Positions 13,147 through 41,514 of a stretch of 64,000 nucleotides of DNA are shown here, one piece after another. A program made the translations under genes and the position numbers. The notes under the pieces are model-generated. The model was given only the letters and a program-made list of their open reading frames with translations, was not told the DNA's origin and searched no databases. This stretch comes from Meloidogyne chitwoodi (lineage: Eukaryota > Nematoda > Chromadorea > Rhabditida > Meloidogynidae). Numbering within the stretch: the stretch's first letter is position 1; each line of letters starts with the position of its first letter. The stretch spans positions 1,426,001 to 1,490,000 of the forward strand of contig JACZZP010000004.1 in the NCBI GenBank assembly GCA_015183035.1, in the 5' to 3' direction.

Positions 13147-13180
13147 TTTATTACCAGTGATTGGAATTTTCGATTTTGCT

Positions 13181-13370: not shown

Positions 13371-13413
13371 TGAAATATTTTATGCCAGTTTTTCCTTGAA
13401 AAAAATTTTAATA

Positions 13414-15713: not shown

Positions 15714-15830
15714 TTTAAAAAAATATTTAAAAATGATAAAATATAATGAAAGTAAAATAGAAATGATAAATTTTATAAAATATAATTAAAACACAATGCC
15801 AACAAAATGTCAATTTTGGGAAAAACTGCT

Positions 15831-16060: not shown

Positions 16061-16117
16061 GACCTTCCAATCACTGTTTATTACTAGGTATATTGATAAA
16101 AATAACGTTCTTTTATT

Positions 16118-21563: not shown

Positions 21564-21569
21564 TTTATT

Positions 21570-21603
21570 AGTAGTATATAGTCTACTTTTATGAACATTT
21601 TTT
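21570..21603 (+). repeat. Polinton left terminal inverted repeat
   Basis: Thirty-four bases beginning AGTAGTATATAGTC and ending in six T; the exact complement is at the right end. It directly follows the TTTATT target duplication. Confidence 0.92.
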
Positions 21604-21639
21604 AAATTTAGAATTTAAAAAATATTCATAAAAGTAGAC
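21581..21639. repeat. Near-perfect palindrome inside the Polinton left end
   Basis: GTCTACTTTTATGAA (from 21,581) and its complement ending at 21,639 form about 29-bp arms with one mismatch and essentially no loop. The left arm belongs to the terminal repeat; the right arm is an extra inverted copy absent from the right terminus. Confidence 0.85.
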
Positions 21640-23031: not shown

Positions 23032-23536
23032 GATGAAAACTGCAATTACAAAGCTAGTAGATGGCTCTAGCTGTCTACAAATTACAAAAGGCTACAAAAA
23101 ATTTTGTAATATGTGTAATAAAATTATTGAGAAAAATTATGTAACTCATAGTTACATGCACTTACAAATCGATATCTTTGAATGCAAAACCTGTTACATA
23201 GTTTGATCAAAATATAGAAATTATAATAATATAACATTTTTTAGGGTGGGAATGATATAAAAATTATAAAAAAACACACTGAGGAATTTCATGGGAAAAA
23301 AAGTGAGCTTTACGACAAGCGCTTTTTCTTTTTTGAGGAAATTAAAGTAAAAATTAAATTTAATTAAAAAAAATATAAAAAATTTATTTATTAAAAATTA
23401 TACAAAAATATTAAATTTAATTAATATTATATTTTAAAAATTATTTTTTTAGAAAAATTTGAAAAAATGTTATCCTAAATCATTTATTGACTGTCAAATT
23501 CCAACAATAGAAGTTAAAAATAATAAAAAAAAATAA
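23032..23536 (+). CDS. Small two-finger C2H2 zinc-finger protein
   Basis: Three exons (23,032-23,200; about 23,244-23,347; about 23,453-23,536) join in frame to about 117 residues. Two C2H2-like fingers are visible: C25-x2-C28-x10-H39-x3-H43 and C51-x2-C54-x12-H67-x4-H72, the second split by an intron. The C-terminus is KNLKKCYPKSF...IPTIEV. The start is uncertain because the frame is open for seven more codons upstream. It lies inside the Polinton. The target, nucleic acid or protein, is unknown. Confidence 0.5.
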
Positions 23537-24307
23537 ATATTAATTAAAAATTTAAAATTAAGGATATTTATCAAATCGAAGATAAATTTACCAAATTTTA
23601 TGTGAAATATACTGTTGATAGCGCAAACAGAAACTGGAAAAAAAACTATAATAAAATAAATAAAAAATTTAAAGAAAAGAATGCAATAAAAATTTAATTT
23701 AAAAAAATCGTAAAAAAAACTTAAAATTGTAAAAAATTTATGTTTTTTAATTTTTATTTGTACATAATAAATAAACTTAAATAAAATATTTTTCAAAAGG
23801 TAATTTTACTCTTTTTCCACCTCCACTTTTTTTAAAGTTTATAAAGGTTTTAATATAAAAATTTTTAAATAAGTTCAAATAGAAAATTTTTTAAAATGCT
23901 AATTTATTTTAAATATTTTTGCTTCTAATTTTGTTATTATATGTATTATATATTTATTAATAGTACTTTTTAACTTTTTAATTAAATATATATTATTTAA
24001 TAAAATTTATTTTTTCTATTTTCCATAAGTTATTTCCTTTTAAAGAAAAATAATAATAAATATAAAATTAATTTTTTCGAAAAAAAATGTCATCTAATAT
24101 TATTTTTAATATTCTTAATTTATAAATCAGCTGCTTCTAGTACTTCTATATTAATAATAATTTTACTTTAAAAATATTTTTCTACTATTTTTTGCCTTTT
24201 ACAATAGGTTATATTTTTATTTTAAAAAATAATTGTTTTGAATATTTTTAACTTTTTAAAATATTTTGAAAAAAATTATAAATAATTGTACTTTTTTAAA
24301 AAAATAT
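23537..24307. other. Polinton interior, no gene seen
   Basis: AT-rich filler between the zinc-finger gene and the receptor-like fragment. The apparent minus-strand frame at 23,494-23,796 is low-complexity Phe/Ile/Lys. Confidence 0.4.
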
Positions 24308-24921
24308 GTAAGAATTACTTTAGTTGTTGATCCTCATTTTGTTTATGCATTTAAAGGTAAAAAAAATAAATTAATTAAAGATAGATTTAAGTATTTATTA
24401 GAAATTGGAATTTATTAAAAAAAAATATTTAGTTGATGAACATTCGAGATGTTCAAAACTTGAATTTCTAAATAATCCAACAATAAATATTGAAGGTCTA
24501 AAAGTAGTAAGTAAAAATATTTTTCTTCTTAAAATTAAATTTAAAATTGAAGTCAGGTCCTTGGTTTCCCTGTGAAAGTAAAATATTTGAAAATAAAAAA
24601 GAATTCTTTTGTTGTAGTGGAATGGCTGTTGAATTATTATTTTTAATATCAAAAGGTTCAAAAAGAAAAGAAGAAAATTAGAAGAAGAAGAAATATTTGC
24701 TGATAATAGTTTTTAGTTTTGAATTAAAATTAAATGATTCTTATGGATCTGTTTTACTATTAGAAGAACAAGAAGGAAAAGAAAGAGAAGGAGAGGGATT
24801 TAAATTAACTGGAATGGTAATTATTAATTAATTTAATTTAAAAATAATATTTATTTATTTATTTAAATAGGTTGGTGAATTAGATGCAGACGGATTCTCC
24901 TTTTTTATTTATAATTTTTAG
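24308..24921 (+). pseudogene. Fragment of an ionotropic glutamate receptor (NMDA-type S1 ligand-binding lobe)
   Basis: Exon-like blocks separated by plausible introns: VRITLVVDPHFVYAFKG (24,308-24,355), KKKYLVDEHSRCSKLEF...NIEGLKV (about 24,413-24,510), SGPWFPCESK...EFFCCSGMAVELLFLIS (from about 24,554), SFELKLNDSYGSVLL...FKLTGM, and VGELDADGFS to a stop at 24,921. The order and spacing follow the S1 lobe of NMDA-type subunits: EPFVY, a CTGP-like turn, CCxGxxxDLL, FTYEL...DGxxG, GMxGEL. The first two blocks do not join in frame and everything after GMVGEL is missing, so this is a relic. Intron remnants imply capture as genomic DNA. The assignment rests on motif order only. Confidence 0.5.
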
Positions 24922-27056
<2,135 letters not shown>

Positions 27057-28490
27057 CTAAATTGAAAATAAAAAAGGGTAGAAGAATTTGGCTAATTTTC
27101 AAAATAGACTAAAAATCATGAGTACAAGTATTATAAAAACGAAAGAGATAATCAAAAACATTAAAATCGTTCAAATTTTAATGTTTGAAATATTTAATAT
27201 GCTTTAGAAATAAAAAATAATTATTTTATATTAATTTGTGTTGATTTGACTGAATTTGAAAAAATATTTAAATAATAATGAAGGAATTAATAATAATATT
27301 GAATTAATTTTTGTATTAGGAAAAAAACATTTTATAATAATGATTTTTGAATAAAATTGATAAAAATTGTTTGTAAAGTATTTTTTCGATTAATTACCCC
27401 ACCTATATTAATTAACCCCTCCAACGATAGGTTGAAACATTAATTACCAAGAGTAACTATTCGAAGAAATACGGTATTTTAAAATAAAAATAGATATATG
27501 TGGGATGGTTGAGTGGATAACAACCGTGTCGATCCCATACAATTTTTTGCAATTTTCTGGGATGTGTTCGGTCTCTTATCGAAATTTTTATTTTAATTAT
27601 ACAAAATTAATTAAATTATTAATTTAAAAATAAAAGTGATATACAAAATGAAAAGCTAGTATCTTTTATAAGCACATTTATAAATTATTAAATGCAATAA
27701 AAAATTAATAAATAATGAAATAAAAAGCATGATTTAAAGATCATTAAAAAAATCCTGTGTAAAGAATTAAAAAATGGAAAACTTGATTTTTTCAAAGTGA
27801 TTTTAAGGGTATTCTAAATAAAAGAGTAAGGTAATAAAAATAAAATTCAATTTTTTAATGTTGTTTATGTATAGCAATTAAATTTTGTCAATGAAAAAAA
27901 CATGATTTTATTGTATAAATATGTAAGTTTTATTATTATGGCAGTCTTACTTGATAAAAAAACAATTTTTTGTTATTGAGCATCAATAAAACATTTTTTC
28001 TGAAAATAAAATCTAGTTTTATGACATGTATGATGCATATAAAAGCCTAAAGTTTTCATCGAAAAATATCATTTCTCATATTTTCTTAAGTTTTATTCAT
28101 TAAGCATTTAATTGTTATATTTTAAACTCCTTAATATATAATTATTTTGTGGGTATACTTCATAATATATCCTCTTTTTTATTAAGCATTTAATTTTTAC
28201 ATTTTGAACCTCTTATAAAAAATTAATTACTTCTCTAAATATCCTTTTTTTATCTATCCCTTTTTTTTATTAATTATTTAAACTTTTAAACCTCAATAAT
28301 AAATTATTATTTCTGTAATAATAAAAAACAACTTTTAGGAATCTATTGCCATATAAAACCTTAAAGACTTTAAACTAAAAAATATCATTCATCTTAGGAT
28401 TTACTAAATTTTTTACTATACTGCCATCTTTTTTTTTTAATTTAACAAAAATAATTTTCTAGGATTATTCACATTTTTTAAAAAGAAAAA
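27057..28490. other. Polinton interior, non-coding, with promoter-like motifs
   Basis: Apart from the tRNA-like stretch, no gene is seen. Two similar blocks about 310 bp apart each join ATATAAAA to a TAAAG and an AAATATCATT motif (about 28,036-28,080 and 28,351-28,393). They may be duplicated promoter modules for the gene at 28,491. Confidence 0.35.
27499..27593 (+). other. tRNA-like / SINE-like sequence with Pol III A- and B-box resemblance
   Basis: TGGTTGAGTGGA (near 27,507) resembles a tRNA A box, and TGTTCGGTCTC (near 27,564) resembles a B box about 55 bp downstream, as in a tRNA. The acceptor and anticodon stems do not fold convincingly, so it could be a decayed tRNA, a tRNA-derived SINE head or chance. 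Confidence 0.3.
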
Positions 28491-29115
28491 ATGAAAGCAA
28501 CTAAAAATGGCAAGTTAAATTAAATTATTAAAAAAATTAATATTTTTCATTAGTAGACTCCATTGATGAAACAAATAATTTTGAAGAGGATAAAGGTTGG
28601 TTAGATTTTAAATATTAAATTATTTTTTTAGGAAAAAAAACCGAGGATAAACATGAAAATATTGACGATATTGAGGGTAAGAATTCTTTAGAAAATATTT
28701 AAATATAGAAAATTAGAGTCCTTAACTAATGGCGAACTTCAAGCTATAAGAGAATTTATTATTGAGCAAAAGAATAAAAAAGATAATGCGAGACGAAGAT
28801 CACTAACTAAATCTAATTCAAGCTCTGGGTCCTGCAAAACACCTGTACCTAAGAAGACCAAACCATCAAATGCTAAAAATTTAAATAAAAAAAATTGCCT
28901 TGAATACTCTAATAAGGTACAATAAAATTATTTAAATAATAGAAAATAACAATTTCATTTTTAAGCAAGAAAAAGATGAGGATTATGAGCTTCACCAGGC
29001 GATTATGGAGTATGTTGAAGAGGATAACTCTGACGAGCCAGAGTCAGATGATATCATAGATCTTGGTGAAGATGAAGCGGACTATAAGAAGCTTAAACTT
29101 GAGAGTAGTTACTAA
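28491..29115 (+). CDS. Acidic, intron-containing Polinton protein of unknown function
   Basis: Five exons join in frame from MKATKNG to KLKLESSY and the stop. The protein is about 150 residues: an acidic N-terminus, a basic Ser/Lys-rich middle (ARRRSLTKSNSSSGSCKTP) and a strongly acidic C-terminus (EEDNSDEPESDDIIDLGEDE). The first intron uses a GC donor (G|GCAAGT). No domain is recognised. It sits immediately upstream of the polymerase gene on the same strand, where it might be an accessory replication protein; that is a positional guess only. Confidence 0.55.
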
Positions 29116-29228
29116 TTTAATTAAATTTTTAAAAAAATTTGTAATAATTAAGTAATTATGACTACAAATTACTTTATTTTTCTTTTATCCTAGACTCATA
29201 ATAAATTTTTTAAGAAGAGAGATCAAAA

Positions 29229-31060
29229 TTGATTCCGGAAGGTTTGCTTAAACGTTCGATGGTGCTTAAAGAAAAACGTTCTGGACTTTTCTTTTTTCAA
29301 TGTGCCAAATGTAAAGATAATCACAAAAGAAGAGAAAGTTTTATGTTTAAATCAGGACATTCAAGGATTTCCATTTTAACTTTGGAACTTTGTCCAGAGT
29401 GTTTAGATAAGAATATACAGCTAGGAACTTTTTATGCGGGTCATTTGGGTTAGTGGTTATTTTCTAAAATAAAAATAAATTTTATTATAGTTAATTCAAG
29501 AAAAGAATATGTTTCTGGAGCACAAGCTTCTAATTTTGAGAATGGTATGAATACAAATTTTAATTTTATTATTTAATTAAGTTGCGGGAGTTCTTCACTT
29601 TCGCCGTGGTGAGAGCAATAGTGTTATTCCGGAGCGTATATATGGAAAATTAGTAAGTTTAAACGAATTTTTAAAAAATATTTTATAGATATTTCATCTT
29701 TGTCATCAATGTGCAATAGAAATGGAGCCAGGTATTGCAAAATGCAAAGAAAATAAATATAGTAGAAAAAATGGTCATACTTGGTGTCAGCATAATGATC
29801 AACAACGTGGATTCATTAGCACAATATGTTCAGTAGAACTCGAGCTTGCGCTGAGCAAAGGATACAGAGCTACAAAAGTATTTAGTATATATCATTGGGA
29901 TGAATGGTCTAACACCTTACTAAGACCTTATGTACAGGACATGATGCGTTTAAAAATAGAGGTTAATATTGTTATTTGTGTAAAAAATTTTTATCTAGGC
30001 AAGCGGTTGGCCAAGTAGTGTTCTTGCTCCTGAAAATCCAAAATTGGAACAAAAATTAAAAATGGAATTTATTGAACGAAACCAGAGAGAATATGGAATT
30101 CAACTTGAGTCTTTAAGAATTGAAAAGAATGATGGATTGCGCTATTTAGCTAAAACTTGCAATAATTCTATGTAAGAAAATGTTAAATATTTATTCATTA
30201 TTTTCAGGTGGGGAAGATGGGCATTACGGTGTAATTTAACTCAGGACTGTATTACAAGCTCTCCTGTTAAACTACATACCGTCCTCAATGATCCAAAATT
30301 GGAAATCGGAGCTGTTGAAATGTTGTCTCCAAATCTTTTTGCTGTACCTTTTCGCAACAGAAAAGAATTTGTTCGACCACACGAAAAATACAATATTGTA
30401 ATAGCACTTATTACTACTGCAACAGCTAGAATGATGCTTTATGACTATATGGAACGAATTGTAAAAGACAAAAGATGTAAACTTCTCTACACTGACACAG
30501 ATAGCTGCTTTTACGTTCATAAACGTAATATGCTTCCACCTTTTTGTGTTGGAGACATGCTTGGAATGATGGCTCGAGAATATGAAGAGTGGTCTATAAT
30601 TGCATTTTTCACTGGAGGATGCAAACAGGTGTACCAATAAAAATTTTTATCAATTTTTTATTTATTAGTATGCGATGAAAATGAAACATAAGGAAAGTGG
30701 AGAAATTAAATATATTGTCAAGTGTCGAGGTTTTTGGGAAAAAGTTGACTCGCCTTTGGACTTTAACCAATTCAAGGTTACATATTTTTTAGCGAGTTGA
30801 AAACCTTTTTTTTAAGAAAATGGTGGAATCATATGGGGATGATCAAGAACCAGTTATACTAGAGAGAACACATTTTCGACCGAGCTGGCGTCATGGGGAA
30901 GTTACAAGTCGATCACAAAAAAGGTATTTTTTAAATATTTTTTAAATAATGATATTTAAGACGTTATGCTCCAATTTATGATAAGGGACTGGTAGATGCA
31001 AATTTTGATTGTTACCCATATGGTTACAGAGGAGAACCGATATCTGATCCGACGAAATAA
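29229..31060 (+). CDS. Protein-primed type B DNA polymerase, C-terminal part
   Basis: About eight exons encode the palm/thumb part of a Polinton-type DNA polymerase B: IPERIYGKLIFHLCHQC, TWCQHNDQQRGF, VELELALSKGYRATKVFSIY and EASGWPS. Motif B follows (TCNNSMWGRWALR, split by an intron), then motif C YTDTDSC (30,488-30,508) with both catalytic aspartates, and FWEKVD. The 3'-5' exonuclease, the protein-priming segment and a proper motif A (DxxSLYP) are not found. The N-terminal exon instead has two CxxC pairs, and a VNSRKEY stretch sits roughly where motif A should be. There is no good ATG (frame open from 29,214; first ATG at 29,259). It is probably 5'-truncated and non-functional. Confidence 0.8.
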
Positions 31061-31175
31061 TTTTTATTTGAATAAATTTTTATTTGAATTCTTTTTTATT
31101 TTTTAATTTGTTTTTACATCATATATATATATTTTAAAATTATTTAATAATTTTTTACAATTTAGTTAAGGCAAT

Positions 31176-31840
31176 ATGATCAGTGACATGGGTGATAAAT
31201 CATATTTTTTAAAATATCAATTATAAATTTCAGAAATTACTACTCGTATGCTTGAGCGCCTTCAGCTTGAACATGAAGCAAAGTGTATTCCTCCTGAGGA
31301 AATAATAGGAGAACATAATCAAACAATATTTGTGTTTCATAATCAAAGATGTGGATTTGATAATCGATTTAAAACAACTTTTACAATACTAAGCCGCAAA
31401 TTTAGTTCTATTGAGCAATTTTACATCTGGCAAAAGGCACGCTTTTTTGGAGACATTGAAATTGCTTTTGAAGTGCTATCTATCGATAATCCAATTGCAA
31501 TTCGTAGAATTGGAAAACGTATTCGCAACTATAAGCAAGAAGAATGGAATGCTGTACGCAACAAGGCAAATATTTATATTTTTTAAAAAATTTTTTATAT
31601 CTTTAGATAATGTATACGGGATTATGGGCTAAATTTACACAAAATAATCAATTGTTCAATCAATTGCGTGCGACTGGAAATGGACTTATTTCTCAGCTTT
31701 CTGCCTCAGAAACGTATTGGAGTAGTGGTGTAAGTCCATTTAGTCCATGCTTAAAGAATCCGAGTCAATGGGGAGGCGAAAATTATCTTGGACGATTATT
31801 GATGGAATTAAGAAGTGAAATGAATAGAAGTATTTATTAA
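31176..31840 (+). CDS. NADAR-domain (YbiA-like) protein
   Basis: Three exons give about 195 residues covering a full NADAR/DUF1768 domain: FSSIEQFYIWQKARFFGD, NPIAIRRIGKRI, EEWNAVRNK, MYTGLWAKFTQNNQLFNQL, LRATGNGLISQLSASETYW, PSQWGGENYLGRLLMELRSE. NADAR proteins include plant and bacterial N-glycosidases and enzymes linked to ADP-ribose metabolism; the family signature residues here look intact. The second intron uses a GC donor (AAG|GCAAAT). The stop lies 3 bp from the stop of the convergent TBP gene. A NADAR protein is not among the standard Polinton genes, so it is probably cargo. Confidence 0.83.
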
Positions 31841-31843
31841 TTT

Positions 31844-32454
31844 TTATTTCACAAATGTTAATATAGTATCGTAAATTTTATGTTGAACGTAGTAAATTTC
31901 TTTTTCTGAGCGCGCACCTGTTATTATACACTTTCCTGTTGTGAATACTATAACAACAGCACGTGACTCTTTCATTCTTAGACACATTCCTGGGAAAAAT
32001 TCAGGGTTGTATGATATATGTTTTGCGAGCCATTCTGGTCGTACAATTCTTAGTGAATCATATAGAGCTAAAAAAGTTTTAAATAAGTTAATATTAAAAA
32101 TATACCTGGTAAATTTAAAGATCCATGAAAAGAAAAAGATGCAACCACGTTTTGTATTCTAAAATCATGCATATTTATGGGCGAAAATGTTCCGTCGGAT
32201 ATAATTTTTACAAAATGTTTTATTGAAAGTTCAGAGTCTCTGACTGATTTTGTTCCGACACAGACAATTCTTCCGTTTGAGAATATTAATGCTGTAGCCC
32301 GAATTGGTTCTTTAATTTTTATTATAAGTGCAGAAAACCGATTTGGTGTATATTTAGAATTTTTAATATGCGATGAAAGACTATAAAGGTCTAGCTTTTT
32401 ATCTAAAATCTTCCAAGTAGAAACTACATTTTGAATAATAGCTTTAGCAAACAT
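31844..32454 (-). CDS. TATA-binding protein (TBP) core, both repeats
   Basis: Two exons (32,454-32,106 and 32,067-31,844) join in frame to 190 residues that span the whole bipartite TBP fold and nothing else. Repeat 1: IQNVVSTW, LDLYSLSSHIKNSKYTPNRF, EPIRATALIFSNGRIVCVG. Repeat 2: FRIQNVVASF, NPEFFPGMCLRMKESRAVVI, VFTTGKCIITGARSEKEIY. The pseudo-symmetric DNA-contact pairs are kept: Asn9 and Asn102, and the intercalating phenylalanines F40/F58 and F141/F158. The frame is uninterrupted while neighbouring element genes are broken. There is no N-terminal activation region. The gene is head to head with the packaging ATPase and tail to tail with the NADAR gene, within the Polinton. It would bind TATA DNA; the role in the element is inferred. 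Confidence 0.9.
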
Positions 32455-32500
32455 CTAAAAAAATATTTTTATATAAAAAATTATTACAAATAATTTAAAA
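32455..32500. promoter_or_regulatory. Bidirectional TATA region between TBP and ATPase genes
   Basis: The two start codons are only 46 bp apart. The interval holds TTTTTATATAAAAAA (32,466-32,480), nearly its own reverse complement. It can serve as a TATA box in both directions, 22-31 bp before the ATPase ATG and about 12-20 bp before the TBP ATG. Confidence 0.55.
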
Positions 32501-33103
32501 ATGTTCAAAGCGCCCTTTACTATGGTTATATCAGGAGCCACAGGAAGCGGCAAAACCCAGTGGCTATTACGTTTTCTTAAAAATACGGACCAACTTGTCG
32601 ACCCTCCACCATTGAAGATTTTATATAGTTTTGGAGAAATGAATGAAACAGTTTTCAAACTAAAAGAAATGGGTATCACCACATATAATGGGGTACCTGA
32701 AACAGAACTAATTAAACAGCATCAGCTTTTAATTTTGGATGACTTGATGCTTAATATTCCTAGTCAATTTTTAGATTTATTGTTTACTCGTGGGTCGCAT
32801 AATTGGGGTGTAAGTGTAATTTTTGTCACACAAAGCTTATACGGTAAGGATATAAAGACAGCGCGTGCAAATGCTCATTATATTCTTTTAACTAAAAATC
32901 CTCAAGGATTATTGCAAGTGCGTACACTCGGGTCTCAGCTTTTTCCAAAAATGCTTAATTATTTTTTAGAGGCATATAGAGATGCTACTGCAGAAAAATT
33001 TTCTTATTTGTTAATTAACATGCATCCGAATGCTGACGAAAATTTTCGGTTATCTACAAAAATATTTCCTGGAGAAAAAACTACTATATATTTGCCACTA
33101 TAA
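32501..33103 (+). CDS. Polinton packaging ATPase (A32/FtsK-HerA type)
   Basis: A 200-residue intronless protein. Walker A GATGSGKTQ is at residues 12-20, the Walker B strand LLILDDLM near residue 80, then FTRGSHNWGVSVIFVTQSLY with the sensor-like glutamine, and LLTKNPQGLLQVRTLGSQL. Length and motifs match the genome-packaging ATPases of Polintons, adenovirus-like and virophage elements, which drive DNA into capsids. All key residues appear intact. First gene of a tight rightward cluster. Confidence 0.92.
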   Translation: MFKAPFTMVISGATGSGKTQWLLRFLKNTDQLVDPPPLKILYSFGEMNETVFKLKEMGITTYNGVPETELIKQHQLLILDDLMLNIPSQFLDLLFTRGSHNWGVSVIFVTQSLYGKDIKTARANAHYILLTKNPQGLLQVRTLGSQLFPKMLNYFLEAYRDATAEKFSYLLINMHPNADENFRLSTKIFPGEKTTIYLPL

Positions 33104-33111
33104 TATATAAG
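33104..33111 (+). promoter_or_regulatory. TATATAAG box
   Basis: TATATAAG begins 33 bp before the ATG of the 33,137 gene, just after the ATPase stop codon. The same octamer occurs at matching distance before the capsid gene at 39,123. Confidence 0.5.
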
Positions 33112-33136
33112 CGTTCAAAAATATTTCATATTTAAA

Positions 33137-33493
33137 ATGCATGCGTATAACTATAGTCCATACGTTAAAGAAAATTTTGAATTTCTCCAACGTTTAGCAA
33201 AAACATCCTCCGATAAAAAGAAAAACGCGTTGATATTATCGGCTAATGCTGATCAAATTTTAGCAATTGTTGAAATTTGTGCTAATATCTTAAAACATAA
33301 TTTCACACTAAGTCGAAGGCAGCGAAGAAAATTAGTTCAGTTTGCAGATTACTATAGGTCTATTGCCAGAACACGTACTGAAAAAAGCGCACGCAATCGT
33401 ATTCAAAAAGGAGGAAGCGCAGCTTTGGCAGCTATACTTATACCTGTTTTAGGCGCATTAGCAGAGCATATTATTCATAAATTCACACAATAA
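33137..33493 (+). CDS. Small basic Polinton virion-type protein
   Basis: 118 residues: a helical N-terminus (ENFEFLQRLAKTS), ANADQILAIVEICANILKHN, an Arg-rich stretch LSRRQRRKLVQFADYYRSIA, then QKGGSAALAAILIPVLGAL, a GG-hydrophobic C-terminus. Proteins with this layout (LSxRQRxKL plus QKGG and a hydrophobic tail) recur in Mavericks and are thought to be minor virion or core components; I cannot name the protein. The stop overlaps the next start as TAATG, as in a translationally coupled pair. Confidence 0.7.
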   Translation: MHAYNYSPYVKENFEFLQRLAKTSSDKKKNALILSANADQILAIVEICANILKHNFTLSRRQRRKLVQFADYYRSIARTRTEKSARNRIQKGGSAALAAILIPVLGALAEHIIHKFTQ

Positions 33494-34296
33494 TGAAGCA
33501 TACAAAGAAAATGATAATGGTGCCTGAGGCCGAATATGTTACACTTTTAAATATGATCAAAGGTGGGGATTTTTTACAAACAGAAAAGGCAAAAACTGAT
33601 TTAGACATAAAACGAACATTAGATGATCCTAAATTAACCGAGGATGTACGGGCAAAAAAGTATAACTTGCTATACAAAAAAAGAAGACAATTAAAAGAAA
33701 AATTAGAAAATCGACCACAAAAGGTAATTATAGAAGAAAGAAAAACAAATTCTGAGGCGGCTCCGTATTTAAATGTAGGCACAAATAAATCGAGTTTAAT
33801 TGTTGATAAAGGTGAACCAAAGCCTGATCCTCAAACTACATCAGAAACAAACCTTCGAACTCCTAAAATAAAAAGATCAACTCCTTTCAAAGGAATTATA
33901 GCAAAGAAATTTTCAGATGAGATTGAAAATTATGTCAAAGATCATTCAAAAAAATTTAAAATTCATGAGGACGGGAGTTTTGAAACATATGTCAAAGGAA
34001 GACGTGTAAATAATAGTAACTTTAATCATGTACTTGAATACATAACTGGAGATAGATCTTCACCTCCAAAGGGTTTTAAATTTCTATTTAGTCGTCTTGC
34101 TAAGGATCCCTTAGTTATGGATTTTATTCGTAAAACACGTGGAGACAGCAGTACAGAAAAAAGTTCTGAAAGTAAAGAGGAGAGTTCTGGAAGTTCAGAG
34201 GAAAGTTCTGGAAGTAAAGAGGAAAGTTCTGGAAGTAAAGAAGAGAGTTCTGGAACGCAGTCAGGAACGGAAAAAAGGGGAAAAGAGTACTTGTAA
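33493..34296 (+). CDS. Polinton protein with MVPE-type N-terminus and Ser/Glu repeat tail
   Basis: 267 residues. The N-terminal KKMIMVPEAEYVTLLN is a common beginning of a conserved, uncharacterised Maverick protein. The middle is coiled-coil-like and Lys/Arg-rich; the region KFKIHEDGSFETYVKGRRV...VLEYITG is a compact domain of unknown role. The C-terminus has four 21-bp tandem repeats encoding SKEESSG/SSEESSG (34,170-34,255). It begins on the last base of the previous stop codon. Function unknown; virion association is inferred from gene order. Confidence 0.7.
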   Translation: MKHTKKMIMVPEAEYVTLLNMIKGGDFLQTEKAKTDLDIKRTLDDPKLTEDVRAKKYNLLYKKRRQLKEKLENRPQKVIIEERKTNSEAAPYLNVGTNKSSLIVDKGEPKPDPQTTSETNLRTPKIKRSTPFKGIIAKKFSDEIENYVKDHSKKFKIHEDGSFETYVKGRRVNNSNFNHVLEYITGDRSSPPKGFKFLFSRLAKDPLVMDFIRKTRGDSSTEKSSESKEESSGSSEESSGSKEESSGSKEESSGTQSGTEKRGKEYL

Positions 34297-34306
34297 GGAT
34301 CCCAAC

Positions 34307-34313
34307 TATAAAT
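34307..34313 (+). promoter_or_regulatory. TATAAAT box before integrase
   Basis: TATAAAT about 45 bp upstream of the integrase ATG, in a 60-bp intergenic gap. Confidence 0.3.
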
Positions 34314-34357
34314 TCACCTGGGTTTGTTCGAAGAAAAAATAAATTTATGCCACAAAT

Positions 34358-35452
34358 ATGGGAAAAGCTATAGACAACTTATTAGAGAAAATATACTATT
34401 CTCTCAATTCCTCTGCTTCCTATTCTGGAATAAATCGTGTCTATGAAGAAGCGCGAAAGAAAAATCCAAAAATAAATAAGAGGGATGTTGTTGATTTTCT
34501 TCTAAAGCAGAGGGTTTATACGATGCATCGTCCTGCAAGAAAAAGATTTGAAAGATTAGTAACGCGACCAAGCGGGCTACATACAGATTGGCAAGCAGAT
34601 TTGGCAATTTTTGATCAGTTAGCAAAATACAATGATGGATTCAGGTACCTTTTAGTATGCATTGATGTTCTCAGTCGAAAGATTTTTGCTGTACCTGTAA
34701 AAACTAAGAAATCTGAGGATATGATTGAAGCATTTGAAAAGATTTTCAAAATTTCGAAAGGAATCTTGCCCCACAAAATATATACAGATCGTGGCTTAGA
34801 ATTTGAAGCTAAGAAAATGCATGAATATTTTAAAACAAAGGATATCGATAAACGTGTAGTTTATAGTCCAGATGTACATGCTTCAATGGCTGAAAGGGCA
34901 AATCGAACCATTAAGGAAAGATTATACCGATACTTTAGTGAAAAAAATACACAAAGATGGATAGAAGCTGTGCAGAAGATTGTACAAGGAATAAATTCTA
35001 GTATTAATCGCATTACAGGTGTGACTCCGAATTCTTTTACATTTAAGAATGCAAGGAATATTTTTGAAAGACTATATAAGGATCCCAAAACTCCACTTAA
35101 AAGTTCATCAATACTCGGACGAGGACAAATTGTTCGAATATCTAAAGAAAAAGGTAAATTTGAAAAAGGATATTTGCCAAATTATACTGACGAATTATTT
35201 CGCATCTATATAGTAAACGACTCACAACACCCTATAACATATCGTTTAGAAGATTTAGAAGGAAATTCAATTAAGGGGGTATTTTATAGGGAAGAATTAG
35301 TTCCCACATCTGAGGATACCACACATAGAATTGCAGAAATTTTAAAAACACGAATTACAAGTTCAGGCATAAAACAACATTTTGTGCGTTGGATTGGCTA
35401 TACAGATATTCATAACAGTTGGATTAACGATAACGATATAGTTAGACGTTAA
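34358..35452 (+). CDS. Polinton integrase (retroviral-type DDE, with chromodomain-like C-terminus)
   Basis: 364 residues, uninterrupted. The core shows D81 (DWQADLAIFD), D144 (IYTDRGLEFE) and E179 (ASMAERANRTIKERL), a D-62-D-34-E spacing typical of integrases. Other support: LVCIDVLSRKIFAVPVKTK and VTPNSFTFKN. The C-terminus HRIAEILKTR...FVRWIGYTDIHNSWI is a chromodomain-like fold that often guides chromatin targeting. An N-terminal HHCC zinc finger is not obvious. It joins element ends to target DNA, generating the 6-bp duplication. The penton-like gene begins two bases after its stop. Confidence 0.93.
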   Translation: MGKAIDNLLEKIYYSLNSSASYSGINRVYEEARKKNPKINKRDVVDFLLKQRVYTMHRPARKRFERLVTRPSGLHTDWQADLAIFDQLAKYNDGFRYLLVCIDVLSRKIFAVPVKTKKSEDMIEAFEKIFKISKGILPHKIYTDRGLEFEAKKMHEYFKTKDIDKRVVYSPDVHASMAERANRTIKERLYRYFSEKNTQRWIEAVQKIVQGINSSINRITGVTPNSFTFKNARNIFERLYKDPKTPLKSSSILGRGQIVRISKEKGKFEKGYLPNYTDELFRIYIVNDSQHPITYRLEDLEGNSIKGVFYREELVPTSEDTTHRIAEILKTRITSSGIKQHFVRWIGYTDIHNSWINDNDIVRR

Positions 35453-35454
35453 TA

Positions 35455-38226
35455 ATGGATTCCTTCTATGTAATTTTGCCATCAAATACTAACAGTGTTG
35501 ATGGAAATACTACATCAAAGTTCACAGTTCGTATGCCTGATACTCTAGAACTGGACTCAAGCTGGACAGTTGCGCTTTCTAACATCATCTATCCATACTC
35601 TTTCTCATTACTTGGTGGTTCAGATGAACAAGAATCGATAACAATATTTCGCCGATATGGCGAAGAACTTTTACCTATTCGTATCGAGGTACCTGATTTA
35701 TCTTTTTCATCTGAAGAGGCGTTAGAAAAAGCTATAAATGCTATTTTACATGATTCATGGGTAAAAGAAATAGAAAGGGAACGCAAGGAAAAGGATGAGA
35801 AACTAGAAAAATATTTATTATTTGGCGAAGTTAGAAATAAACGAGAGGTAGAGTTAGAATCTATCAAAGAACATTTTGTTACATATGGTTATTTTTACTT
35901 GTCGATAGAGGAAGAAAAAGATTTTATAAAACTTTTATCAGAAAAAGAAGTAGCAATTGACCCTAAAGTTTTACCTTTATCTAAGGAGGAATCAGCATCT
36001 AGTGGAAAAAATTTTAAAATAATACCTCCACAAAAAGAAAAGAATTTTTATATTATGTTATTAAGTGAATTTATCCAAGCTCAATTGAAAATTTTGCTAA
36101 TGCCTTTTTCAGAACAACTTGATAAAAATAACTATTTCGATATGCCAAAAGATACATCTTTTAATTTTATAAGATTTTTGGGCAAAAAAGGTATAAGATT
36201 ACCCCGAATAAGCCCTTCCCCTTATTCTGCGGGTCTAAAAAGGGTTCGATTTTATCCTAACAATGATCAAAAAGAAAAGGTCCGACAGGCGGTCGACGAA
36301 TTTATGCTTCCTCCAGAGTCTCAAACACGAAAACCTGAATTACAAAGCGAAGAACCTGTTGAAGTACCTAATCATATAGAGGAACCTAAAGTTGTTGAAT
36401 TAAATACTCATATCGAGGAACATAAAGTTGTTGAAGTTCCTACTCATATCGAAGAACAGCAACCTGGGAATCAACAAGAAGATCATGATGATTCTAAAAT
36501 TGATGAGTCTTTAATTGATTACTCTATAGAATCCATACAAAAATTTGAAAAGGAGGGATATATAGATTTGCCGAAGAAAATTGCATATAAATTTATAAAA
36601 TTTTTAAATGAAAAAATTGAAGGTGCACAACTTCCGAAAGTGCAGAATGTTCCTGAATCGTCATTAGTTCGTTTAAAACCACAAGCTGATCAAAATGAAC
36701 TTATTTTGAATTCTTTTAAAACTTTTGCTTCAAAAAGTCAACAAGAAAATGCTGAATCAGTTAAACCTTCCATCGAAACAAAAGATATTATTCCGCCTAT
36801 AACAAAGATAACTGAAGAGTCTGTCATATTACCAAAGAAAGATATTACTACACCAACTAAAACTGATAATGCTATACCTGAAAAATTAGATAAAAAAGAT
36901 GATACCCATGAAGCTGATAAACCAGAAGTATCTAACGAAGGTGTAACTATTGAAGTTGAAAATTTATTCGCTTTGCGTGAAAAAGTAGAAATTAATGAGC
37001 AAGATAAGCATGAAGAAACATTATCTAAAGAAGAGATTTCTCAAGGCGCGTCACAAACAGAAAAACTTTCATCTATTTCTGAAATACCTTCTAATTCTGA
37101 AATCATGGACGATTCTGTTCAAGAGGAAAAAATTCAAAAAGAAAACGAAAAGATTGATAGAACGCCTCTTGATGGAAAAATAACATCTTTTTATCATGTA
37201 GATATTCCTGATAAACAACCCATCTTAACTGAGGAGCAAAAGAACTTGATTACTGTGGCTGTTCGTGCTGCTAAAAATGCTTGGAGAGAGAGTGTAGATT
37301 TAGCGACGAAATCTCAAGAAAATATGGAACAAGCCGAAGATTTGTGGTGGAAAGCTCGCTTTAAATATTCAGCTAATGATATGCAAATAACTATAAAGAA
37401 AACAGGAAAAGTTGTAAATTTGAGAAAAACACCAGAACATATTGTTCCTTGGGTCCGCGCACAGGTAAGATTATTAACTAGTCGCAAAATAAATATCGAT
37501 GATTGGACTCAGGAATGTTTAGAACTCGCTAAAAGAGCTTCAGTTGCTCACCGTGATGCAGAAACGGCTGAATTGCGGGGAGATGTTTTTGAAGCAAGAA
37601 AAGCCTCGGATCGTGCAAAAGCAGCGTTAAATAAAGTTAAGGAAGCTGCAAAGCAGGTTGAAGAATTATTTACAGGGCATAAAAATCTTGGACTAGAAAT
37701 TATTAATAAAGTTGATGAGGCTTTTAATAATCAAAATGAGCAAAACATAAATTCTCACCATGAATTTAGCCTTCCAATAACAGATGAAGAAGATGATTTT
37801 GAGCCATGGGCTCCAGATGAAATTATTATTGAATCTAAAGTTAAACCTAGTGAAATACATGAAAAATCACAATCATTTCCTCTAACTATTATTGAAGAAG
37901 ATGATAACGAGCCTTGGACATCACAACCGTCTTCTAAAGAACAAAACTTTCAAACAATAATTGAAGACGAAGAAAAGCCAGCCCTTGAATTACCTAAAGC
38001 AGAAGCACTTGTAGCGAAAGAAGAACCATCGTTTTGGAGTAAAATATTTGGAGGCAGTTCAGAATCAAAAGAATATCAAACTAAACAACCATCTAATGAA
38101 CCAAGAGCAGAAGCCCTCATTGCCGAACATCCTTCAACAAATGATTCAAAAAAAATGCATTATGCTAAATATGCATATCCGTCTGAATATAAAAAATGCT
38201 TTTGGACTTTTCTAATTTACAGTTAG
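35455..38226 (+). CDS. Penton/minor-capsid-like Polinton protein, N-terminal and central part
   Basis: 923 residues. The first 50 (FYVILPSNTNSVDGN, TSKFTVRMPDTLELDSSWTV, ALSNIIYPYSF) match the conserved N-terminus of a large Maverick virion protein. The long middle is charged and unusual: imperfect repeats around THIEEHKVVEVPTHIEE, a helical stretch VRAAKNAWRESVDLATKSQE...EAAKQVEELF, and repeated acidic EEDxxEPW and PKAEALVAKE/PRAEALIAEH motifs. The conserved C-terminal domain of the family lies in another frame at 38,196-38,678; the frame breaks at an A6 run near 38,195. Whether this is a mutation, a sequencing error or slippage is open. The structural-protein role is inferred. Confidence 0.75.
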   Translation: MDSFYVILPSNTNSVDGNTTSKFTVRMPDTLELDSSWTVALSNIIYPYSFSLLGGSDEQESITIFRRYGEELLPIRIEVPDLSFSSEEALEKAINAILHDSWVKEIERERKEKDEKLEKYLLFGEVRNKREVELESIKEHFVTYGYFYLSIEEEKDFIKLLSEKEVAIDPKVLPLSKEESASSGKNFKIIPPQKEKNFYIMLLSEFIQAQLKILLMPFSEQLDKNNYFDMPKDTSFNFIRFLGKKGIRLPRISPSPYSAGLKRVRFYPNNDQKEKVRQAVDEFMLPPESQTRKPELQSEEPVEVPNHIEEPKVVELNTHIEEHKVVEVPTHIEEQQPGNQQEDHDDSKIDESLIDYSIESIQKFEKEGYIDLPKKIAYKFIKFLNEKIEGAQLPKVQNVPESSLVRLKPQADQNELILNSFKTFASKSQQENAESVKPSIETKDIIPPITKITEESVILPKKDITTPTKTDNAIPEKLDKKDDTHEADKPEVSNEGVTIEVENLFALREKVEINEQDKHEETLSKEEISQGASQTEKLSSISEIPSNSEIMDDSVQEEKIQKENEKIDRTPLDGKITSFYHVDIPDKQPILTEEQKNLITVAVRAAKNAWRESVDLATKSQENMEQAEDLWWKARFKYSANDMQITIKKTGKVVNLRKTPEHIVPWVRAQVRLLTSRKINIDDWTQECLELAKRASVAHRDAETAELRGDVFEARKASDRAKAALNKVKEAAKQVEELFTGHKNLGLEIINKVDEAFNNQNEQNINSHHEFSLPITDEEDDFEPWAPDEIIIESKVKPSEIHEKSQSFPLTIIEEDDNEPWTSQPSSKEQNFQTIIEDEEKPALELPKAEALVAKEEPSFWSKIFGGSSESKEYQTKQPSNEPRAEALIAEHPSTNDSKKMHYAKYAYPSEYKKCFWTFLIYS

Positions 38227-38678
38227 CCGATCCTCGTTATGAATGGGTCTCTTTTCATTATGATAAGTTGCATCATCGTTTCTGGGTTAGCTTAGAAGGA
38301 AATGTACAATATATTCAACTAAGCCGTCAACTAGCCTATACATTGGGCTTCGATTCAGAAAAACTCCATAATGGTCATGTCGCAAAGTATATGCCAGACC
38401 TCTCTGGAGGTGTGCGTCAATTTTTAGTTTATGCACCGCGACTTGTTGAAAATAGTATAATTGGAAATGTTACCGCTCCATTATTACGTGTTGTAAATGT
38501 TAATGGAAAACCAGGAGATTGTATTTCCGAGGTATATATGACCGAGCATCATCATCGTTTATTAGGAAAACGTCATCCTGATATAACAATTGAAATACGA
38601 AACTTAACTGGAAATTTAGTAAAATTTCATTGGGGAAATTGTATAGTAACACTTCATTTTCAACGCTCATTGTTTTAA
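38196..38678 (+). CDS. C-terminal domain of the penton-like protein, out of frame with its N-terminus
   Basis: 160 residues: VQYIQLSRQLAYTLGFDSEK, PDLSGGVRQFLVYAPRLVEN, GNVTAPLLRVVNV, DITIEIRNLTGNLVKFHWG and TLHFQRSLF. This is the conserved C-terminal beta-rich region of the same Maverick family whose N-terminus is encoded at 35,455, so the two frames are one broken gene and not independent genes. An ATTTACAG acceptor-like site precedes the domain, but no GT donor gives a continuous frame. Confidence 0.75.
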   Translation: MLLDFSNLQLADPRYEWVSFHYDKLHHRFWVSLEGNVQYIQLSRQLAYTLGFDSEKLHNGHVAKYMPDLSGGVRQFLVYAPRLVENSIIGNVTAPLLRVVNVNGKPGDCISEVYMTEHHHRLLGKRHPDITIEIRNLTGNLVKFHWGNCIVTLHFQRSLF

Positions 38679-38681
38679 ATT

Positions 38682-39083
38682 ATGACACACATAGCCATTG
38701 ATTTGGATAAAATTGACTGGGGACCCTTTTTAAATGCCCAAGAGGGTAGTGGCATGCTAGAAGGAAACCGATATTTTCAAGGAACAAGGTACCAAAGGGG
38801 TTTTGGTGTACTTGGTGCTGTAGGTCGTTTTATTATGCCTATTGTCAAAAATTTAGCTACAAGTGCAGGTCAGGAGGCTGTAACTGCAGGAAAAAATATA
38901 CTTGAGGATGTTTCACAGGGTCGTTCTGTTAGTGAAGCTTTGAAACAACACGGCACTGAAGGTCTTCAAAAGGTAAGTAAAAAACTTCAACAATGTGGAA
39001 AAGGTAGAAGAAAAACTAAAATAGTCGAAAAGAACAGTCGTCGCCGACGCTATAGAGATCAACTTAGTTTAGAAGGACTCTAA
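38682..39083 (+). CDS. Small basic Polinton protein with YFxGxxYQRG motif
   Basis: 133 residues. NRYFQGTRYQRGFGVLG is a hallmark of a short, conserved Maverick protein; it is followed by a glycine/alanine hydrophobic helix (AVGRFIMPIVKNLAT), AGKNILEDVSQGRSVSEAL, and a basic tail (GKGRRKTKIV...SRRRRYRDQL). It is probably a DNA-condensing or membrane-active minor virion protein like adenoviral core proteins; that comparison is inference. It begins 3 bp after the preceding stop and ends just before a TATATAAG box. Confidence 0.75.
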   Translation: MTHIAIDLDKIDWGPFLNAQEGSGMLEGNRYFQGTRYQRGFGVLGAVGRFIMPIVKNLATSAGQEAVTAGKNILEDVSQGRSVSEALKQHGTEGLQKVSKKLQQCGKGRRKTKIVEKNSRRRRYRDQLSLEGL

Positions 39084-39084
39084 G

Positions 39085-39092
39085 TATATAAG
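39085..39092 (+). promoter_or_regulatory. TATATAAG box before the capsid gene
   Basis: TATATAAG begins 38 bp before the ATG at 39,123, as before the gene at 33,137. Confidence 0.5.
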
Positions 39093-39122
39093 TTCTCGCA
39101 TTGGCTAAATTTCCAAACAAAA

Positions 39123-39734
39123 ATGGCAACGATCAAAAAAATTGATAAAGATAGTTCTGAGGGTGTTGATAATCGTCTAACTTTCTTTACTATTCCTTCA
39201 ACTAATGTAGGTATACAACGTTCGGCTTTCAAAGAACTACTACCTCTTAATGCTCTAAATCAATCTGCAGGTCCATTTATTTTTCGTTATTTTGGAGATT
39301 CACTTTATCTTGATTTGAGCAAGACTTATTTTAGTTTAGTTTTATCACTTGAAAGAAAAAATAAAGATGGTGAATGGGTTCCAATTACAAACGGTACAAC
39401 AGAAGCTTTTGTGGGCGATAAGCATACAAGCGTTGCACAATATTTAGGTTTAACATGGATTCGTCGTCTTACTCTTTCTATTAATGGAGTTCAGTGTTAT
39501 GATTCTGGCATTCATTATTCATATAGATGTATATTTTTACATGAACTTGGAGCTAATAGAGAAATTAGTAAAGGCCTTTATGAGGCAGGCCTTTATTATA
39601 AAGATGCCGTGGACAAGAATGATATTAATGGTTCTGGATTTAAGGCTCGTGCAGTGGTCCTGAATCTCTTAATCGTGAACTACGCAAAAAATACAATGAA
39701 AATATTCAATTCCTTCAAACTCTTACAACTATGA
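39123..39734 (+). pseudogene. Polinton major capsid protein, N-terminal fragment
   Basis: Residues 1-175 follow the N-terminal half of the Maverick capsid family: FFTIPSTNVGIQRSAF, AGPFIFRYFGDSLYLDLSKT, WIRRLTLSINGVQCYDSG, YSYRCIFLHEL and GLYEAGLYYKDAVDK. Typical proteins of this family are several times longer. Here family similarity stops near GSGFKARAV, and the frame runs into unrelated residues and a stop. The downstream sequence belongs to a PAZ-like fragment in another frame. The element therefore cannot make a full capsid from this locus. Confidence 0.78.
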
Positions 39735-40042
39735 CGAATGAAGATGTTACTAATACTGGAATTGGGCAGAGAGAATTTAGAGAATTTAGAAATAAAGCAC
39801 TTGTTACCAATCATCTGAAGCATGTTCAAATAGAAGTTTATCCTACCAAATTAACGAAAATGGGTGCAGACCGCATATTTGCATTAAGAGGATACTTGAG
39901 TGTTACAATAAGACAATATTTTTATGTTCGGCATCGTGTTGATCTTGTTTATCCGAATTTGCCGTTATTATGTGTCTTTGGAGGACGACGCCATCAATAT
40001 TTCTACCCACTTGAATGTATTGACGTCATAGAAATTGATTAA
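39644..40042 (+). pseudogene. Argonaute-like fragment containing most of a PAZ domain
   Basis: A frame open from 39,644 (first ATG 39,731) to the stop at 40,042. The C-terminal 90 residues fit a PAZ domain, closest in feel to worm-specific Argonautes: LKHVQIEVYPTKLTKMGADR, IFALRGYLSVTIRQYF, VDLVYPNLPLLCVFGG, YFYPLECIDVIEID. YPNLPLL and YPLE match the YPxLPxL and PLE signatures of the 3'-end-binding pocket. The segment between LRG and LSV is shorter than usual. The N-terminal 40 residues (ELRKKYNENIQFLQTL) are unassigned. It is fused out of frame to the broken capsid gene. Whether it is expressed is unknown. Confidence 0.6.
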
Positions 40043-40069
40043 ACAAATGTGAATTGATTTTGAAAAAAC

Positions 40070-40078
40070 TATATAAAG
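40070..40078 (+). promoter_or_regulatory. TATATAAAG box
   Basis: Lies about 45-53 bp upstream of the ATG at 40,123 and 28 bp after the PAZ-fragment stop; supports 40,123 as the true start of the last gene. Confidence 0.4.
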
Positions 40079-40122
40079 GATTTATTTTAATTATCTATTT
40101 TTTATTTTATCTATTCATAAAC

Positions 40123-40689
40123 ATGTTATTCGCTTTTTTATTTTTGATTCTGGCTGTGCCATCATTAGTTGCATATTACACTAACGGTAGGAATCCTGTC
40201 TGGGTAGAACCCTGTACCTGCCTTCTTCCACTTGAAAAAGGTAAAAACCTTTGTGCATTCAATGTATGCTACCCTGATTATGTAGAAACACCTGTTTGGA
40301 AATTAACTGACGCTAAAGAAACCTTATTTCGGCGGACTCCAGCACCACCCATAAGAAGAACTTTCATAAAAGATATTTTATTTTGGAATAATGAGAATTT
40401 ACCTTTGAACACTACATTTCAAAATAAAACAACATATAATATAGGACACTTAATGTTTGATTTGGACAAATGGAACGAAAAGCTTAAAAGTTGCAATCTA
40501 TCTAATGTAGAGTACCCCGGAAAGCCTGTAGACATATCAACTTATAATTCAAGAAAGCCAATAGAAATAACAAATAATGAAACTGATTACATAATGTATT
40601 CTAGATGGCGCTTCTTGAAGGAATCTCCTATTTCAGATATCATTGATTTTTTTACAAATGTAAAAGATAACGTTGTTGCATTTTTTTAA
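40123..40689 (+). CDS. Predicted secreted or membrane protein at the Polinton right end
   Basis: About 188 residues from the first ATG; the frame opens at 40,054 without an ATG. An N-terminal hydrophobic segment (MLFAFLFLILAVPSLVAYYT) is followed by a cysteine cluster (WVEPCTCLLPLEKGKNLCAF, NVCYPDYVETP) and a polar region with possible N-glycosylation sites (NTTF, NKTT, NLSN, NETD). The C-terminus ISDIIDFFTNVKDNVVAFF is amphipathic. I do not recognise the family. Nematode Mavericks can carry envelope-like proteins, and this would be a candidate by position only; a captured host secreted protein is equally possible. Confidence 0.55.
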   Translation: MLFAFLFLILAVPSLVAYYTNGRNPVWVEPCTCLLPLEKGKNLCAFNVCYPDYVETPVWKLTDAKETLFRRTPAPPIRRTFIKDILFWNNENLPLNTTFQNKTTYNIGHLMFDLDKWNEKLKSCNLSNVEYPGKPVDISTYNSRKPIEITNNETDYIMYSRWRFLKESPISDIIDFFTNVKDNVVAFF

Positions 40690-41514
40690 TTTAATTATTG
40701 TTTATAATTTTTATAAATCATTTATTTAATATTAATTTTAAAAACTCAAAAAAAAATATAAAATAATAAAATCCTAAAAAATTAAAAAATATAATTTTAT
40801 TGTACATAATTTTTAATCTTTTTTTATTTTAGTAATTTATTTTTTACAAATAATTTTTTCACTCGTAAAATAAAATAATAAAAAAATGTTCATAAAAGTA
40901 GACTATATACTACTTTTATTGAAAAATAAACAAAGGGAAAGGAACAATTTTGCAGTACTTATATAATTAATTAATTAATTAATTATTTTATATTTATATT
41001 TAAAGCAATTATAATTTAAATTTTAATATTAATATTTAATTAAAATTATAATAATAAATTTAAAAAATATGAAATAATTGTTTGTAATGTTGCCAAATAT
41101 GTAAAGTTGAATCATTGTTTAGTTTTTTAACTAAACAAAAATATTAATAAAATCATAGAAAAATATTTAGAAAAAAAACATTGTAAAAATATTTATTAAT
41201 AGAAAATAAATATTTTTATTAAAAGGCAAATATTTAATCATTTTATTATTTTGACCAATAATCAAAAGAGGAATGAAATAATTAATCATAAATAAATAAA
41301 TAATTTAAAAAAATATGGCAAGTTTTGAAATCACGAGGAATTTAATAAATTTTTGCATTAAACTACTTCCTATTTTTATAACTATAAATACTACTTTAAT
41401 TTTTAAAAAATAAATTTAAAATTTAATAAAATTCCAATTAATTTTCTACAATTATTTTTTATAAATATATTATTATTATATTAAAAAAATTAAAAATAAA
41501 AAGATAATAAAATA
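40690..41514. other. Polinton right end and flank
   Basis: 190 bp of AT-rich sequence, the right terminal repeat (40,881-40,914), the target duplication TTTATT (40,915-40,920), then about 590 bp of AT-rich flank without a visible feature before micropeptide ORF 3. Confidence 0.5.
40881..40914 (-). repeat. Polinton right terminal inverted repeat
   Basis: Exact complement of 21,570-21,603, ending TATATACTACT, and followed by the second TTTATT. Confidence 0.92.

Follow-up and report, generated by a model that had tools for sequence, protein, structure and literature searches.

A TATA-binding protein gene conserved in a Polinton lineage of Meloidogyne chitwoodi and its possible use at TATA boxes of the element

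The TATA-binding protein (TBP) is the entry point of nuclear transcription, and we know of no transposon that carries a gene for it. The present work concerns such a gene, encoded at 31844..32454 by a Polinton (or Maverick) of the nematode Meloidogyne chitwoodi, in a stretch of 64,000 nucleotides (assembly GCA_015183035.1, contig JACZZP010000004.1, positions 1,426,001 to 1,490,000 of the forward strand) that is hereafter called the window. This TBP is a conserved and selected gene of one Polinton lineage, and not a one-off.

The window element shares with described Polintons terminal inverted repeats (TIRs), a target-site duplication (TSD) of 6 bp, a type B DNA polymerase (PolB), an rve integrase and a packaging ATPase. 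Capture of host genes by nematode Mavericks has been reported (PMC10680173). That cargo includes wosp proteases and krma kinases, whereas here it is a general transcription factor, kept lineage-wide and with relatives in several species. In beta- and gammaherpesviruses, a TBP relative (BcRF1 of Epstein-Barr virus, ORF24 of murine herpesvirus 68) is likewise linked to capsid and late promoters (PMC4893493). These proteins are distantly TBP-like, bind TATT and act with several partner proteins in a viral pre-initiation complex; in contrast, the Polinton has a clear TBP, canonical TATATAAG boxes and no known partners. TBP genes are also found in eukaryotic DNA viruses such as mirusviruses, in 59% of their genomes (PMC10132985), and dsDNA viruses, giant viruses among them, encode TBP-TFIIB pairs in which, as in the element TBP, the DNA-contact sites are kept and the contacts with TFIIB and regulators have drifted (PMC7221094). 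TBP occurs together with TFIIB in CpV-BQ1 (PMC12085832), whereas no TFIIB match lies beside any nematode element TBP locus. Host TBP and its paralogues (TLF/TRF2, nematode TBP) belong to the same family, and host TBP has one intron site and phase in common with the element gene; the element TBP differs in lacking an N-terminal extension, in lying in a mobile element and in forming a separate clade in the best trees.

In the literature searched, available in part, no case of a Polinton or Maverick with TBP was found. Where TBP appears in Polinton-related papers, it belongs to mirusviruses (PMC10132985) or to mirusvirus-linked algal elements (PMC10675990), and elsewhere to giant viruses (PMC11464507, PMC12085832) or to a cited title (PMC7786948). 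PMC11071308, PMC8288018, PMC11118728 and PMC7593179 contained no word starting with TATA.

The TBP gene, its element and its copies

The gene is read on the minus strand, from 32454 to 31844, with the following parts:
32106..32454, minus strand: TBP exon 1, with repeat 1 and the start of repeat 2 (Pfam match, predicted splicing)
32068..32105, minus strand: predicted TBP intron, 38 nt, GT-AG, phase 1 (splice prediction, alignment with the host TBP intron)
31844..32067, minus strand: TBP exon 2, including the stop codon (Pfam match, predicted splicing)

Left unspliced, the frame meets a stop codon at the predicted intron; with the intron removed, translation gives a protein of 190 aa. This protein matched PF00352 with E=3.5e-42 and 142.6 bits (cut-off 22.9), in two stretches corresponding to both repeats, and its best solved relative by sequence in the PDB was the human TBP core 1cdw (E=1.7e-32, residues 7-188). 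By alignment, all six residues at the positions which we take to be those of TATA recognition in TBP (four intercalating phenylalanines and two central asparagines) are present in the window protein, and they are kept in every ungapped row, site by site, of clade A, the group of element TBPs to which it belongs. The saddle fold rests on P0001, an orthologue from M. enterolobii with 70% identity to the window TBP, for which AlphaFold2 gave a model with a mean predicted local distance difference test of 93.8. The top Foldseek match of this model was the human TBP-DNA complex 1cdw (E=5.8e-19, TM 0.84/0.91, root-mean-square deviation 1.4), and the first 44 ranked chains were all TBPs or TBP-holding complexes. 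The window gene is an intact two-repeat TBP. A sequence-only reading of this DNA had described it as a 190-residue, two-repeat core with all four phenylalanines and both asparagines, to be checked by a family profile search and a structure prediction; the profile search agreed directly, and the structure prediction through the orthologue.

The element that holds the gene has the following boundaries and diagnostic genes:
21570..40914, no strand: Polinton/Maverick, this copy 19,345 bp (TIRs, TSD, siblings with the same end bases)
21564..21569, no strand: left TSD, TTTATT (sequence)
40915..40920, no strand: right TSD, TTTATT (sequence)
21570..21616, plus strand: left TIR, 47 nt, 87% complementary to the right arm (inverted-repeat comparison)
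40868..40914, minus strand: right TIR (inverted-repeat comparison)
32501..33103, plus strand: packaging ATPase (Pox_A32-like P-loop), intact (Pox_A32 E=3.5e-7, over the cut-off)
34358..35452, plus strand: integrase, intact (rve E=2.6e-10, over the cut-off; chromo below the cut-off)
30176..30640, plus strand: PolB remnant, broken (DTDS motif; PF03175 matches in siblings)

DNA searches with both ends of the element identified two sibling copies, C1:818773-840182 and C28:1137402-1163180 (contig and coordinates), which begin and end at exactly the same bases and are flanked by perfect 6-bp TSDs (GCAGAA and CAGGTA, respectively), so that a TSD was present in 3/3 insertions examined. TIRs with a 6-bp TSD, the rve integrase, the packaging ATPase and PolB in the siblings, where PF03175 (DNA_pol_B_2) matches lie 3.5-4 kb from TBP, are those of a Polinton. 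The PolB remnant of the window had no Pfam match of its own, and we assume from its DTDS motif that it is a DNA polymerase B. The location of TBP inside a Polinton bounded by TIRs and TSD, as claimed earlier, was confirmed in three bounded insertions, and in none of these does the assembly place the locus outside the element.

The genome (47,477,280 bases in 30 contigs) was searched for further copies, and the resulting locus counts are lower bounds. PF00352 gave at least 46 matches, which were merged into 22 loci: 16 of clade A, 3 of a second element group named clade B, and 3 host-like (TBP L027 on C10, its paralogue L026 on C29, and L029 on C28, which is taken for TLF). L026 (C29:1699859-1700972) appears as a second intron-bearing host TBP paralogue, on a long branch beside host TBP. 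In the window and in 15/15 fetched clade A loci (L011-L025), TBP adjoins the packaging ATPase and is divergent from it, the two start codons being 45 to 1500 nt apart. All 16 clade A TBPs are intact, with 189-193 aa and one predicted intron of 37-43 nt at a single site (splice sites picked by script for likeness to the window protein). Searching with the ATPase yielded 62 match rows, of which 16, all clade A, were at 81-100% identity, 3 were beside clade B TBPs, and 43 more (about 40 loci) were at 40-55%; no PF00352 match belongs to these about 40 other Polinton ATPase loci. Conversely, every clade A TBP among the 22 PF00352 loci adjoins an element ATPase. In four of the TBP-less Polintons (L044-L047), the side of the ATPase that has TBP in clade A is occupied by a gene of 100-210 aa; this gene is upstream of the ATPase, shares its strand and has a conserved CRxCKG-like motif.

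Clade B comprises L028, L030 and L031, whose ATPase is 44% and whose integrase pieces are 42-47% identical to those of the window. Its TBP is more distant, intronless, intact in L030 and L031, and broken in frame in L028; a 24-residue clade B TBP remnant on C2 was picked up solely by the protein query.

Relatives of clade A were found in M. enterolobii, M. incognita and M. hapla, and among metagenomic proteins (P0013, P0034). The TBP protein search gave 45 proteins at E<=1e-3, not all of clade A, and the organism-named matches down to P0026 were all from Meloidogyne. Clade B also has relatives in Meloidogyne (34 proteins, not all clade B). In P0004 and P0013, short insertions stand at the position of the intron, as expected if it were retained. 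No free virus carrying the window ATPase or P0013 was found in IMG/VR. These matches suggest that some Meloidogyne entries named TATA-box-binding protein may be genes of the element and not of the host.

Origin and selection

The intron of the element TBP interrupts the Ala codon of NLP^A in phase 1, and host TBP L027 and its paralogue L026 have a phase-1 intron at the aligned position, at the Gly codon of QLE^G. This common site and phase point to capture of TBP from a eukaryotic genome as genomic DNA. Such a route is plausible since the same copy holds another piece of host DNA with introns:
25324..27209, minus strand: piece of a captured host PKN-like kinase gene, introns included (Pkinase E=9.7e-16)
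The piece, for which the name PKN is our assumption, matches an internal gene piece at C3:914203-916083 with 97.0% identity over 1895 columns. The C28 sibling has it and the C1 sibling lacks it, and it is a recent capture.

Phylogenies were built on 60 rows (four identical clade A rows omitted, part of the database matches used, and 8/12 IMG/VR loci) and on 56 rows (four long-branch rows, three viral and P0190, additionally omitted); long branches affect the TBP trees. Clade A was one group in both (support 100/97 and 100/99), as was clade B, separately (100/99 and 100/100). Placement of clade A among nematode TBPs was disfavoured but not rejected (difference in log-likelihood 11.7; approximately unbiased test, p-AU 0.09), as was placement beside the Meloidogyne and Ditylenchus TBPs (p-AU 0.09), and the best trees place clade A outside. 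A common origin of the clade A and clade B TBPs was neither demonstrated nor rejected (p-AU 0.416). Grouping of clade A with five viral TBPs from IMG/VR was rejected (p-AU 0.0006), which would separate the element genes from those of mirusviruses only as far as these contigs represent mirusviruses.

These trees also bear on the possibility that the locus is a recent copy, or a misassembly, of the host TBP gene. Host TBP genes do exist in the genome (L027 and its paralogue L026), but the element TBP is found at 16 loci and in records of other species, P0001 shares only 39-40% identity with the aligned animal TBPs, three element copies have TSDs, and in the best trees clade A, with the above support, stands apart from nematode TBPs. 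A recent copy is not supported, and we regard this explanation as already refuted and give it almost no weight; in particular, the tree does not show the recent decaying host copy that the sequence-only reading had named as fatal to its claim. The phylogeny that it had proposed was informative on the recent host copy and on the viral grouping, nematode TBPs being disfavoured at the p-AU given above. Its proposal of a capture is supported by the common intron site and phase.

Comparison of copies by dN/dS, suggested in the same reading, was performed with NG86, in which several dS values were undefined or at saturation and the ATPase ratios are incomplete. Between families, the TBP ratio was 0.14-0.36. 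For L020/L025, synonymous differences were 26.5 of 124 and nonsynonymous differences 21.5 of 452 (pN/pS 0.22, Fisher p=1.6e-7); four more distant pairs gave p <=5.7e-13, and L021/L017 p=0.011. Young pairs were uninformative (L011/L012 p=0.78, the window copy with L013 p=1 and with L014 p=0.078), the pN/pS of 1.43 for L011/L012 resting on 6 differences and not being significant. The substitution pattern thus indicates that the element TBP is under purifying selection. Protein distances of TBP and ATPase are correlated (r=0.93 over 16 copies), which fits inheritance of TBP with the element.

Selection and distribution also decide how much weight is given to a passenger, i.e. a host gene captured by chance, possibly a spare TBP for the host, with no role in the element. 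Such elements do take up host DNA, as the kinase piece and the cargo genes of nematode Mavericks (PMC10680173) illustrate. Against this are the 16/16 intact clade A copies in the same place, the purifying selection across diverged families, the relatives in three further Meloidogyne species and the count of 0/22 PF00352 loci with a clade A TBP apart from the element ATPase; we consider a mere passenger quite unlikely.

TATA boxes and the possible role of the element TBP

The sequences considered as promoters, with the second gene concerned, are the following:
32455..32500, no strand: spacer of 46 bp separating the start codons of the divergent TBP and ATPase genes, with TATATAAA at 32470-32477 (sequence)
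39084..39092, plus strand: GTATATAAG, TATA box 5' of the capsid-like gene, conserved in clade A (spacer comparison)
39123..39734, plus strand: capsid-like gene, shortened in this copy (comparison with siblings)

GTATATAAG, with TATATA at -36 to -39 of the capsid-like gene, was present in 6/6 clade A representatives (the window copy, L021, L024, L025, L085, L086) and in 0/18 other Polintons sampled (L067-L084), two of which (L078, L079) have TATAAA at -48/-49 instead. Its 9/9 bases are invariant, vs 4/31 other spacer columns, and only 1/500 shuffles of four clade A capsid spacers (the window copy, L021, L024, L025) did as well. Since GTATATAAG occurs once in the window for an expectation of 0.71, position and conservation, not rarity, carry the case. 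Upstream of the ATPase, TATAWA at -46 to -25 was found in 5/5 clade A families (shuffle mean 1.68; 5 reached in 0/500 shuffles) vs 7/22 TBP-less loci sampled, the ATPase start codon being uncertain in L057, L058 and L066. Fisher p values for the association of TBP with a TATA box were 7.4e-6 for the capsid box and 0.0098 for the ATPase box. For the remaining clade A genes, no TATA box was found before g33493 (0/5), g35455 (0/5) and g38682 (0/4), and one of two was positive for the NADAR gene. A TATA box before g33137 (5/5) was set aside, several matches lying in the coding end of the ATPase, as were the matches at the integrase, which may be coding sequence.

These conserved boxes in element promoters make transcription directed by the element more likely, and the mechanism that we consider best, and probable, is that the element TBP directs TATA-dependent transcription of the element's morphogenesis genes. 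A Meloidogyne Polinton lineage would long ago have acquired a eukaryotic TBP as genomic DNA, with one intron retained, and would since have kept it as a working gene, made from the divergent gene beside the packaging ATPase. The protein would bind the TATA boxes of the element, above all GTATATAAG for the capsid-like gene and TATATAAA for the ATPase, and would then recruit host TFIIB and RNA polymerase II. It would act as a private promoter-recognition factor, its TFIIA and TFIIB contacts having drifted from those of the host, and morphogenesis genes could thereby be expressed with less dependence on the regulation of host TBP. We infer the binding of DNA, the use of host TFIIB and RNA polymerase II, and the effect on transcription of the element. 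A virus-encoded TBP, together with TFIIB, can redirect host RNA polymerase (PMC12085832).

Contact surfaces of the protein were compared with those of host TBP. Mean identity of clade A to host TBP is 68% at 20 sites which we take to contact DNA, vs 32% elsewhere, and the lysine and tyrosine that contact TFIIA are mostly changed. One of the two glutamates which we presume to contact TFIIB (compare the C.L3.2/C.L3.4 sites of PMC7221094) is replaced in most rows, and the second is kept in 20/20 ungapped clade A rows. Changed TFIIA and TFIIB contacts with DNA contacts kept would also be expected of a decoy, which competes with host TBP or captures parts of TFIIB or TFIID, and so reprograms or shuts down host transcription; viral interference with host transcription is common. 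However, use in cis accounts better for the TATA boxes conserved at element genes, and the second glutamate is kept, and we judge a host-directed role unlikely. It has also been considered that the protein could guide the integrase to host promoters, or bend element DNA in replication or packaging, transcription being secondary. TFIIIB, which contains TBP, guides some retrotransposon integrases, and the TBP gene adjoins the ATPase and is near the integrase, but the three target sites read (TTTATT, GCAGAA, CAGGTA) have no common sequence, and such a helper role appears very unlikely.

Transcription of the element's own genes through its TBP remains the preferred reading, and several results weigh against it. 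TBP is under weaker constraint than the ATPase (dN/dS between families 0.03-0.13 where defined; L016 absent) or the integrase (0.09-0.17; L020 dropped for an internal stop, and L016, L017 and L023 absent). One central DNA-contact threonine is a valine in 22/22 clade A rows, which could weaken DNA binding, and the first TFIIB-contact glutamate is an asparagine in 19/22 (1 cysteine, 2 gaps), which could weaken TFIIB binding. The Fisher p values overstate the association, because clade A is one lineage and represents one evolutionary event; host TBP suffices in the 7/22 TBP-less elements with an ATPase TATA box; and the clade B elements L068 and L069 have TBP without such a box at the capsid-like gene (L067 and L070 resemble them by sequence). 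The sequence-only reading had relied on an intact TBP frame beside broken genes. The polymerase (longest stop-to-stop frame at 28-31 kb, 154 aa) and the capsid-like gene (216 aa open in the window vs 475 in both siblings, with an internal deletion here) are indeed broken, but the ATPase and the integrase of the same copy are open (the ATPase without internal stop in 16/16 clade A copies), so that intactness is not peculiar to TBP and this argument is weaker than had been held. Finally, viral TBPs that retain DNA sites and lose partner sites come from viruses almost all of which encode a TFIIB-like protein (PMC7221094), and none was found beside the element TBP: the genome search with PF00382 found two places on C2, with 3 matches in all, and neither adjoins a TBP locus, although a divergent TFIIB could escape it. 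With no such match beside TBP, host TFIIB would be used.

More tentatively, it is possible that two Meloidogyne Polinton lineages each independently took a TBP as a private general transcription factor, and that one of them gained with it a TATA promoter at the capsid-like gene, a simple late-gene switch convergent with the TBP-like system of herpesviruses. If the element uses its TBP, the genome has, in addition to an essential host gene, 19 TBP loci borne by elements, the majority under selection, and would offer a small natural system in which to study the insulation of a captured general transcription factor from its host.

Other genes and repeats of the element

The assignment of the capsid-like gene (39123) is our assumption from motif, size and position; it had no match in any domain or protein library searched, PHROGs included. 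PHROGs searches with five element proteins matched only the integrase, and Rfam gave no match over the window. One further gene adjoins TBP:
31248..31586, plus strand: NADAR-domain open reading frame (ORF) (PF08719 E=3.3e-10)
Its relatives in other clade A families are 46-64% identical.

A weak PAZ-like ORF lies at 39731-40042 (PF02170 E=2e-5, 25 bits, below the cut-off of 28.8). In P0166 (M. enterolobii) and P0175, the clade B TBP occurs together with a PAZ match, which fits the neighbourhood of L030, and an ORF at L044:600-1211 resembles the PAZ-like ORF by eye. A small-RNA-binding domain such as PAZ on a transposon could relate to RNA silencing.

Inside the element, a satellite-like stretch of about 139 nt (22796-22938) matches arrays near several contig ends (for example C8:12-34 kb, C26:2.649-2.652 Mb and the first 1.5 kb of C27). 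Outside it, at 6795-19003 of the window, DNA with few ORFs is enclosed by long inverted repeats, nested in each other (1149 nt, 100%; 1072 nt, 97%), and is possibly another mobile element.
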